NCBI GenBank assembly: GCA_903944085.1
Contig: CAJAQO010000265.1
Coordinates: 1 to 34,132, forward strand
DNA: 34,132 bases
Source: an uncultured Verrucomicrobia subdivision 3 bacterium
GTDB lineage: Bacteria > Verrucomicrobiota > Verrucomicrobiia > Limisphaerales > UBA11358
Direction: 5' to 3'
Below, piece after piece: positions 6,249-19,009 of the stretch (positions are counted from its first letter, which is position 1; the number at the start of each line of letters is the position of its first letter). A program made the position numbers and the translations under genes. The notes below the pieces were generated by a model. It ran no database searches and was not told the DNA's origin. It saw nothing but the letters and a program-made list of their open reading frames with translations.

Positions 6249-6626
6249 GGGCAGTGTTAATGCGGCCACGGGAATCCCGCCGGCGCGTTGTGGCATCCTG
6301 TCGGACGAGGTTGGGAACGTGCCGGACCAGGTTGGGAGCGTGTTGAAGGAATACGGATTCCTGCCAATCGCCACGGGGAACGCCGCGAACGAGGTTGGGA
6401 CTTTGACGGAGCAACCGGGAACGCCGCTGGACGGCATTGGGACGGTGACGGACGACCTGGGGACCGCGCCGGACGGCAGTGGGATCGTGACGGAGGAACG
6501 GGGATTCCTGTAAATCGAGTCGGGAAGCGCGCCGGACAACCTTGGGAAAGCGCCGGACGATAGTGGAATCGTGATGGAAGGATGTGGATGCCTGTAAAAC
6601 CGGTCGGGCACGGTGTCAAACGCCTA
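6249..6626. repeat. 21-bp degenerate tandem array, 18 units (type I)
   Basis: Eighteen consecutive 21-base units begin at 6249, 6270, 6291 and so on to 6606 without one slip in register. The shared pattern is roughly TGGGAnCGTGnCGGAC followed by four or five free bases; the first five positions are best kept. Individual units differ strongly from each other, so this is an old or actively selected array rather than a fresh expansion. It fills most of the gap between trpD (start 6122, minus) and the flagellin stop (6781, minus). Because 21 is a multiple of three, long open frames appear on both strands with heptad periodicity; I do not regard them as genes. Confidence 0.92.
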
Positions 6627-6668
6627 AAAAACCCTGCCAGATGGCAAAAAGCACCGGCGGACGGGTTT

Positions 6669-6746
6669 TGGGAGTGCGCGGACACGTCCGTGCTTGGGAA
6701 CTGGGAGACATGTCTCCCCGTGGGAAAGCGGTGGCGTGTCACCGCA
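6669..6746. repeat. three 26-bp units, each TGGGA plus its own palindrome
   Basis: Units start at 6669, 6695 and 6721 with TGGGA. Each contains a dyad: the first GCGCGGAC-AC-GTCCGTGC at 6676-6693 (one mismatch), the second the perfect palindrome GGGAGACATGTCTCCC at 6703-6718, the third GCGGTG...CACCGC at 6728-6745. Dyad centres are 6684.5, 6710.5 and 6736.5, exactly 26 bp apart. Left and right arms differ between units but change together, so pairing is kept. A fourth short dyad, TGCCA-GA-TGGCA, is at 6635-6646. This block sits 35 bp downstream of the flagellin stop codon. Confidence 0.88.
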
Positions 6747-6780
6747 CGCCACAGGACGCCGGGCGATTTCCGCCCTTGAA

Positions 6781-7986
6781 TCAGCCGAGCAGCTTGAGGA
6801 TGGATTGCGGCATGGCGTTGGCCTGGGCGAGCATGGCGGTGCCGGATTGCACGAGGATATTCTCCTGCGCGTAATTGGTGCTTTCCTGCGCCACGTCCAC
6901 ATCGGTGATGTTGCTTTTGGCGGCGGCGAGGTTGTTGTTGAGCGTGCCCAACTGGGCGCTGGTGTAGCTCAACCGCTCCTCGTTGGCGCCGACGGTGGCG
7001 CGGTCGCTGGCCAACTGGTTGATGGCGTTTTTGATGCTGGTCATGGCCGACTGCGCGCCGCTGACCGTGCTGATGTCCAGCGCGCTGGTGGTCGTGGTGC
7101 TGGTCGTCGTTACCTGATGGGTCAGCATCGTGGTAAACGTTTCGGCACCGTTGTATCTGGCAGTCCAAGTAGAGCTGGAGGGGGTGAATCCCAAATCGGA
7201 CAACAAGTGTCCACTGCCACTATTCGTTGAATTAAAATCGTCTACAAGTCCATATTCAGACGTTGTCATGGAAAGCTGGCCGGTAGTTGAATTGTAACTG
7301 GCACTGTCTTCGCTAGTCGAGTTAAGGAAGTTTACCAAGTCATTGATCGTATCGCTTGGCGTAAAAGTTCGAGCATCTCCACCCGATTTAACAATCGAGT
7401 CACTACCGCCGCTGGCGAGTGAGGGGCTAAGAGTTCCCAACTGGGTATTACCCGCATCGGCCACGGTGCTGGTCGTGGACGTGGTCATGGTGACGCCGGC
7501 GGCGACATAGTCGCCGCTGATGCCGGTCATCGCGAACGAGCCGCCTTCGGAATCGGTGGTGACGTTCAGCGCGTTGCCGCTGAAGAGGCTCACGCCGTTA
7601 AAATCCTTGGTGACGGCGTCGTTGATGTAGGTGGCCAGCGTCTGGAATTCCTGATTGTAAAGTTTCCGGTCGCTGGTGGTCTTGGTCACGTCCTGCGCGG
7701 CCACGGTGAGTTCGCTCATGCGCGTCAGTGCGTCGCCGATTTTCTGCAAATAGCCATCCTGCGTCTGGCTGAACGAAGTGGCGTTGGCCACATTGGTGAG
7801 CGCGGCGGAATTGCGGCTGATCTGCGCGCCGAGTTTCATCGAGACCGCCAGCCCGGCGGAATCATCCGCCGGCTGCGTGATTTTGGAGCCGGACGAGAGC
7901 CGGGCGAGGGATTGCGCGAGCCGCTGTGAGGATTTTCCCAACTGCGTAGCCGCAGACTGGGCCGTAATATTTGTGTTGATGACCAT
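6781..7986 (-). CDS. fliC: flagellin
   Basis: This is the flagellar filament subunit, secreted by the flagellar type III system. The N-terminal D0/D1 region (about residues 1-140, MVINTNITAQSAATQLGKSS, LSSGSKITQPADDSAGLAVS) and the C-terminal D1/D0 region (about 320-401, ERLSYTSAQLGTLNNNLAAA, ending AMPQSILKLLG) match the family fully. The middle (about 180-300) is Ser/Thr-rich and includes a segment like a flagellin hook-IN motif (DTINDLVNFLNS...SYNSTTGQLSM). That middle is visibly richer in A+T than the ends, as expected for a variable surface domain. A strong Shine-Dalgarno GGAAGGAG precedes the ATG. No other flagellar gene is in the window, so the gene is isolated from a flagellar operon here. 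Confidence 0.95.
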   Translation of the reverse strand: MVINTNITAQSAATQLGKSSQRLAQSLARLSSGSKITQPADDSAGLAVSMKLGAQISRNSAALTNVANATSFSQTQDGYLQKIGDALTRMSELTVAAQDVTKTTSDRKLYNQEFQTLATYINDAVTKDFNGVSLFSGNALNVTTDSEGGSFAMTGISGDYVAAGVTMTTSTTSTVADAGNTQLGTLSPSLASGGSDSIVKSGGDARTFTPSDTINDLVNFLNSTSEDSASYNSTTGQLSMTTSEYGLVDDFNSTNSGSGHLLSDLGFTPSSSTWTARYNGAETFTTMLTHQVTTTSTTTTSALDISTVSGAQSAMTSIKNAINQLASDRATVGANEERLSYTSAQLGTLNNNLAAAKSNITDVDVAQESTNYAQENILVQSGTAMLAQANAMPQSILKLLG

Positions 7987-18689: not shown

Positions 18690-18779
18690 TGGTGAAAAAT
18701 CAAATTACTGAGTAGCAAAATGGCACAATCCAGTCGCTCGTCAAGCCTAAGCCAAGGGTTTTTATGGCACAACTCGGCT

Positions 18780-19009
18780 TGCGACGACCCGAATTCGACC
18801 TGCGACGGGCCAGATCGCACTTGCGACGCCTCACATTTGAGTTGCGACGGGTCAAATCCGAGTTGCGACGCCCCTGATCCGACTTGCGACGGGTCCAAAC
18901 CGACTTGCGACGCCTCGGATTCCATCTGCGACGGCTTGGACCGGTCTGCGACGGCAATAATGCGACTTGCGACGTCCCCAAACCGAGTTGCGACGGCTTG
19001 GCTTCCACC
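18780..19009. repeat. 21-bp degenerate tandem array, 11 units (type II, core TTGCGACG)
   Basis: Units start at 18780, 18801, 18822, 18843, 18864, 18885, 18906, 18927, 18947, 18968 and 18989; all are 21 bases except one of 20. Each begins with an invariant TGCGACG, usually preceded by T or C, then C/G and TC-rich bases; the remaining 10-12 bases vary. It lies in the divergent region between the histidine kinase (minus) and the unknown gene at 19346 (plus). The core is different from that of the type I array, but period and layout are the same. Heptad-periodic frames on both strands follow from the period and are not taken as genes. Confidence 0.93.

Follow-up and report, generated by a model that had tools for sequence, protein, structure and literature searches.

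An open reading frame on the minus strand of the window, by which we mean the whole stretch of 34,132 nucleotides analysed here, encodes a protein that we take from its sequence to be a flagellin. Just past the stop of this gene, as the original prediction had placed them, lie three dyads whose centres (6684.5, 6710.5 and 6736.5) are separated by exactly 26 bp, again as had been described (Table 1). The three units do occupy positions 6669 to 6746, the span first given for them, but an inverted terminal repeat, ATTTGGAGT...ACTCCAAAT, encloses all three and widens the feature to 88 bp. Each unit had also been said to start with TGGGA. That word was found at 6669, 6695 and 6721, with an additional occurrence at 6702 within the second hairpin (H2), but the consensus unit starts of 38 copies of the family are TTTGGAGT, TTTGGAAC and GT[CG]GGAAA; the word common to the unit starts is approximately TNGGA, and exact TGGGA belongs to the worn copy in the window. 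The short word is shared with an intergenic array of 21-bp repeats (approximately 6302-6608) to which the units had been tied, but the array looks separate. A further intergenic 21-bp array, with a differing unit, was observed at 18778-18934.

Table 1. Features of the three-hairpin element and its immediate surroundings, in positions of the window
Feature	Sequence	Position	Strand	Basis
Whole element: one copy of a degenerate three-hairpin repeat, very probably REPIN-type		6667..6754	+	R1 covariance model, alignment
Left head / terminal repeat	TTTGGGAGT (family form ATTTGGAGT)	6667..6675	+	Sequence, family alignment
Hairpin 1 (H1), left REP palindrome	GCGCGGACACGTCCGTGC, core GACACGTC	6676..6693	+	Sequence, family alignment
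Linker	TTGGGAAC (family form TTTGGAAC)	6694..6701	+	Family alignment
Hairpin 2 (H2), central palindrome	TGGGAGACATGTCTCCCC, core GACATGTC	6702..6719	+	Sequence, family alignment
Linker	GTGGGAAA	6720..6727	+	Family alignment
Hairpin 3 (H3), right REP palindrome, inverted	GCGGTGGCGTGTCACCGC	6728..6745	-	Sequence, family alignment
Right head / terminal repeat	CTGTGGCGT, with GTGG head (family form ATTTGGAGT on the minus strand)	6746..6754	-	Sequence
Flagellin gene (presumed); end 26 bp from the element		6781..7986	-	Open reading frame and gene call
Terminator-like hairpin and T-run, past the element		6622..6649	-	Site scan

A covariance model (R1) was built from 38 copies in the window's own genome, and the window copy, itself one of these 38, scored 85.7 bits over positions 1-88 of the model. 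H3 differs from the consensus by a compensated change (GGCG..CGCC to GGTG..CACC) and by another that affects one arm only, and in H1 a one-sided change gives a G-T wobble. In DNA folding, H1 alone formed a hairpin of -6.1 kcal/mol (z -1.5), and the lowest-energy DNA fold of H3 plus its head, taken alone on the minus strand, was a different, overlapping hairpin. Two folds compete in the element, one long hairpin and a three-hairpin clover. Because a terminator-like hairpin and T-run lie past it, the element is probably within the 3' UTR of the flagellin gene, between the stop and that hairpin; terminator-like sites were no commoner in the region than in shuffled sequence (4 found compared to 3.0 by chance). 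Of 27 flagellin loci elsewhere (two in its own genome, 25 in 14 relatives), none had the element, and the flagellins of the relatives were 58-74% identical over the aligned part. A strong hairpin in the presumed 3' UTR could protect the end of the flagellin mRNA; most likely, this copy next to the flagellin gene has no dedicated job.

The element is one of many in its genome. When the 5.79-Mb draft was searched with the 15-mer TGGGAGACATGTCTC at up to two mismatches, 45 forward and 45 reverse matches were found, window included, compared to 0 forward and 1 reverse matches for the reversed-pattern control; the initial 15 bases of H2 have 44 other forward sites at the same stringency. Forty-two copies were excised and 38 were aligned, giving the consensus ATTTGGAGT-GCGCGGACATGTCCGCGC-TTTGGAAC-TGGGAGACATGTCTCCCA-GTCGGAAA-GCGGCGACGTGTCGCCGC-ACTCCAAAT. 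In its plan, two inverted REP-like units (head TTGGA[GC]T, palindrome and CTTT) stand around a third, central palindrome; the REP-like unit more generally is a TTGG or GTGG head, three nucleotides, a GC-rich palindrome and CTTT, and the central palindrome has the same core as the outer ones. The R1 search of the draft, in which 150 of 4064 first-look candidates were scored, returned 93 rows representing at least 47 sites, and 46 of 47 sites matched on both strands. One fixed three-palindrome unit dominated the copies found with this model, which favours that form; two-hairpin forms were present at C187:21799 and C315:354, and an apparently single-hairpin form at C316:22385. Among the 80 ends of 40 copies, the head was TTGG in 38, GTGG in 15, TGGG in 10 and another word in 17, and some copies showed a faint outer consensus of approximately GGCAGNGNCNTA.

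With genes predicted by a home-made codon-usage caller, none of the 44 copies examined overlapped a predicted gene by more than 30 bp. The 34 copies with both neighbours lay between convergent (11), tandem (18) or divergent (5) genes. Gaps holding an element were more often convergent than other gaps of the same genome (11 of 35 compared to 2 of 27, p 0.028, with a small control), and a neighbouring 3' gene end was within 100 bp of the element in 29 of 45 cases, compared to 15 of 33 neighbouring 5' ends. No general signal of target-site duplication (79 copies) or of a flanking inverted extension was found among the copies. The C282 copy (G000:C282:6295-6382; L026/L071) has a 21-bp direct repeat directly at both ends, unlike the other copies examined in its genome, and one copy in the relative G015 has a 12-bp flanking direct repeat.

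A search for further examples of the unit in other genomes had been proposed as a test of the original prediction, and many were found. R1 matched 48 of 146 genomes (its own included), belonging to 24 of 73 genera, and of 28 among the weaker matches, 20 also passed a stricter E-value. One of the bearers, G015, is a relative within the window's own genus. Among 387 genomes drawn from the phylum, R1 matched 9, namely its own and 8 from other classes. What is common across the phylum is the inverted pair of TTGGA[GC]TGCG-palindrome-CGCTTT, and the middle is variable. A single REP unit used as a pattern was present in 83 of the 387 genomes (its own included), compared to 8 matches in 7 genomes, by our reading of the table, for the reversed control. 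Matches to one exact pattern fell on 41 stretches, and those with a name came from metagenome-assembled genomes of Verrucomicrobia, Verrucomicrobia subdivision 3 or Limisphaerales and from one Chloroflexi-labelled contig (PMXR01000041.1), on which the copy is well preserved and may reflect mis-binning or transfer. In the copies inspected, the central hairpin mostly changed its core together with the outer pair from one genome to the next: the core was GACANGTC in most cases, with GACGCGTC found in G157 and G263 and a AGCTAGCT type in G210, and the central core differed from the outer pair in G197 and G390. Half-elements, consisting of one REP and the central hairpin within a longer repeat GTAAACTCACCGTCACGGCCAAACT..., were observed in G041 and G008 (e.g., L115, L132, L141 and L136).

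The arms of the units had been described as changing in concert, so that pairing rather than sequence is kept. At the level of the family this held. With shuffles that ignore relatedness, and whose fractions are not probabilities, the five inner stem pairs were 86.7% Watson-Crick in a set of 84 distinct REP units taken from other genomes, compared to 47.7% when the 3' letters were shuffled, and doubly changed cells numbered 121 compared to 33.2 (0 of 1000 shuffles as high). In 32 distinct central hairpins from other genomes, 86.9% of pairs were formed compared to 50.2% (0 of 1000 shuffles as high), with 50 and 19.4 doubly changed cells, respectively. The evidence from its own genome was weaker. 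In the 38 aligned copies, the paired percentage was reached by 61 of 500 shuffles and the number of doubly changed pairs by 16 of 500; for the long-hairpin fold the corresponding numbers were 74 and 83 of 500, and the central hairpins gave no covariation signal (431 of 1000 shuffles as high). Fourteen REP units of its own genome were 94.3% paired compared to 73.2% after shuffling (0 of 1000), an excess that mainly reflects the left and right units being two types. Covariation within this genome was rejected as sole proof because it is too weak. Changes in one arm without the other, which the original prediction had named as evidence against it, do occur; they are mainly an oriented G-A mismatch adjoining the core (17 GA compared to 1 AG among the 84 units, oriented relative to the head). 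These findings show that the arms co-vary strongly between genomes and weakly among the copies of one genome.

Transposase genes were found among the units in relatives. When 24 element-bearing genomes were searched with Pfam Y1_Tnp, weak matches in G014, G015, G041, G121, G370 and G488 had element copies or REP units on either side. The six Y1 proteins from these genomes are 175-178 aa long and carry NHYH and YVHxNP motifs. Three that were tested scored 24.7, 24.8 and 31.4 bits with Pfam Y1_Tnp (cut-off 23) and 77.2 (L118), 91.6 (L202) and 79.1 (L238) bits with NCBIfam NF047646, the REP-associated tyrosine transposase (RAYT) family, two of them marginally below its cut-off of 80. The one RAYT searched against the PDB matched TnpA-REP 4er8 only (E 0.04), and an AlphaFold2 model from three sequences had a mean pLDDT of 40.8 and was unusable. 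At E 1e-8 a RAYT profile matched 81 of 146 genomes (its own included), many of the matches being other Y1 domains. At 159 bits or more, 40 genomes had a RAYT, comprising 20 of the 48 element genomes and 20 of the 98 others (p 0.01 by our own tally); the remaining 28 of 48 element genomes include the window's own.

REP units were present at 24 of 30 RAYT loci (114 units in 102,010 bases), or at 20 of 26 when the 4 seed loci are set aside. Among the controls, units were present at 1 of 28 loci of other Y1 genes (89,768 bases) and at none of the 27 flagellin loci (87,114 bases). At 22 of the 30 RAYT loci, units lay within 400 bp on both sides of the gene. Six loci had no unit by the strict rule, and same-head inverted repeats were seen at 4 of the 5 of these that were examined. 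The NHYH HUH motif and the catalytic-tyrosine column were kept in 32 of 32 RAYTs, and the following NP in 19. On the tree of these 32 proteins, the class of palindrome core changed 7 times, compared to a minimum of 6 and a shuffled mean of 18.5 (0 of 200 shuffles as low); the classes were assigned after the cores had been viewed and include "none found" and "other". The palindrome core tracks RAYT phylogeny.

The window's own draft genome yielded no cognate RAYT, even at E 1, where the only match was a 47.8-bit Y1 domain within alaS. Since the draft is approximately 96% complete and in 335 contigs, loss of the transposase and an assembly gap both fit. Four other Y1 proteins of this genome (120-171 aa) were considered as partners of the element and rejected: their motif, Y[IL]xxQxxHH, suggests another IS200-type group, no R1 match was found at their loci, and the inverted repeats there are unlike the REP unit.

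The RAYT-like Y1_Tnp domain in alaS is in frame, and Pfam placed such domains within alaS at L100 (G000:C239, the window's own genome) and, in four relatives, at L274, L278, L283 and L284. The site of the domain within the enzyme varies, and the L283 protein contains it twice. By eye, alaS-like sequence also directly precedes the Y1 domain at L276, L277, L279, L281 and L282; L275, L280 and L285 share the same domain start, and no alaS context was recognisable in the piece inspected. A 21-bp array is translated, as 7-residue repeats, within the alaS of L100. Y1_Tnp was likewise in frame within dnaE (DNA polymerase III alpha; L101, G000:C52), where the insert is flanked by protein direct repeats VARASRPCEQSKELTGETPVPL resembling a translated palindromic repeat, and within priA (L241, G174:C3). 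No account of alaS-embedded Y1 domains was found in the open-access literature.

Because the copies are dispersed and intergenic, the outer units form an inverted pair, the arms covary between genomes, RAYT genes of relatives are flanked by the units and the core corresponds to the RAYT, the feature beside the flagellin gene is very probably one old, degenerate copy of REPIN-type non-autonomous mobile DNA. It has in common with REPs and REPINs a GC-rich palindrome with a head, an inverted pair forming a hairpin, many extragenic copies, a RAYT gene flanked by the repeats (in relatives) and a repeat type that coevolves with the RAYT. The unusual traits are the mostly TTGG rather than GT[AG]G heads, the third hairpin, the wide spread in the phylum and the lack of any detected cognate RAYT in the draft. 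If it works as E. coli TnpA-REP and the IS200/IS605 enzymes do, the RAYT, an HUH-tyrosine transposase that acts on single strands, would recognise the head and the hairpin in single-stranded DNA such as the lagging-strand template, and would cut and rejoin it, so spreading the pair of units to new intergenic sites. Since the units flank RAYT genes, the hairpins are expected to act as single-stranded DNA in transposition. We further suggest, as a guess somewhat more apt to fail than to hold, that a RAYT lineage spread throughout the Verrucomicrobiota recognises a TTGG-type head together with the innermost hairpin bases, leaving the stem letters free if they are paired, and that the central hairpin is a third transposase site, which would make the element a three-site REPIN.

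A structured RNA family was one of two readings offered by the original prediction. In such a family the hairpins would act in transcripts, for instance as an attenuator or to stabilise a 3' UTR, and pairing would be selected in RNA. The predicted RNA fold of the window copy is strong, exceeding shuffles by 4.4 SD for the plus strand and by 3.0 SD for the minus strand, and the closeness to 3' gene ends, the excess of convergent gaps and the terminator-like site past the window element all agree with a role in transcripts. However, the near-universal match to both strands gives no strand preference, the whole flagellin 3' region with the element folds merely 1.7 SD better than shuffles, and the element is absent at the other flagellin loci. 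The window holds no Rfam family at gathering score (at one of four other loci, L118, four sub-threshold miRNA/snoRNA matches were set aside). A structured RNA also leaves the flanking of transposase genes unexplained, and is not the best reading; we regard it as improbable. The alternative offered with it, dyad sites for related dimeric proteins, would have dimers of an operator-binding or nucleoid protein on three dyads of constant pitch. Near-perfect dyads, the constant 26-bp pitch and the conserved core GACANGTC would suit such sites, but head and core are kept while the arms vary freely between genomes with their complementarity retained, the core itself shifts with the RAYT clade, and the oriented mismatch breaks the dyad mostly one way, leaving the proposal unsupported and very hard to credit.

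Equally little probability is given to a classical MITE whose terminal inverted repeat would be the substrate of a DDE transposase. Such an element would account for the 9-10 bp terminal inverted repeat, for the direct repeats flanking the C282 copy and the one in G015, and for the words of 8 or more bases shared by both flanks in 9 of 79 copies, where approximately 3 were expected. However, these words vary in length and position, 70 of the 79 copies resemble the control, no target-site duplication of constant length, a trait of DDE-type MITEs, was found in the 79, and the units flank RAYT genes of Y1 (HUH) type. A different explanation, which does not exclude REPIN-type mobile DNA, concerns the complementarity of the arms. 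Template switching can "correct" palindromes, and hairpin-templated repair of imperfect palindromes, instead of selection, could keep the arms complementary. Covariation that is clear between genomes and weak within one genome speaks for such repair, whereas the persistence of the oriented G-A mismatch by the core and the cores that follow RAYT clades speak against it; we consider it unlikely, with roughly the standing of an outside chance worth keeping in mind.

Read as REPIN-type mobile DNA, these repeats represent a large lineage of REPs and RAYTs from hosts other than the well-studied Proteobacteria, a lineage in which head, core and hairpin number vary along the transposase tree. They would offer a panel for studying how single-strand HUH transposases read hairpins, and genomes with many repeats and no detected transposase would be useful for learning how REPIN populations persist. 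In the open-access literature, a scope outside which most subscription journals lie, no account of a Verrucomicrobiota REP with a TTGG head was found.

Among known systems, enterobacterial BIMEs are similarly arrays of alternately oriented REPs; compared to them, one fixed three-palindrome unit dominates the copies found in the window's own genome with a search model that favours it. In the account of REPINs, or REP doublets, by Bertels and Rainey (2011; PMC3116915), inverted REPs and a spacer likewise form intergenic, multicopy elements that cluster next to a RAYT gene and fold as a long hairpin or a "clover" (legend of Figure S11). Compared to the REPINs of that account, the element described here has a third, near-perfect palindrome of the same core in the spacer, a fixed 26-bp pitch, TTGG as its commonest head and hosts in the Verrucomicrobiota. 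Di Nocera (2013; PMC3733652) described GTAG- and CGTC-tagged REPs and TIRYT elements, with GTAG repeats in Opitutus terrae (Verrucomicrobia); like the present set, those elements include tagged palindromes, and the paper describes tyrosine transposases that carry terminal inverted repeats; the strings GGAG, TTGGA and TGGAG are absent from the main text of that paper. The RAYTs resemble the RAYT/TnpA-REP proteins of Nunvar (2010; PMC2817692) and of PMC6006769 in the HUH motif NHYH, the tyrosine motif YVHxN[PA], a length of approximately 175 aa, the inverted REPs flanking the gene and a REP type that tracks the RAYT clade. Their motif set equals no subclass in Table 1 of PMC6006769; by motif, not by tree, the nearest is subclass 2.8 (NHYH, W[YH], YIHYNP; Cyanobacteria). 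In one RAYT, most of the GTAG-contact positions given there appear changed in a weak pairwise alignment to 4er8 (E 0.04). Because section 12 of the same paper counts repeats that lack GT[AG]G among those linked to RAYTs, that head is typical of REPs and not strictly defining.
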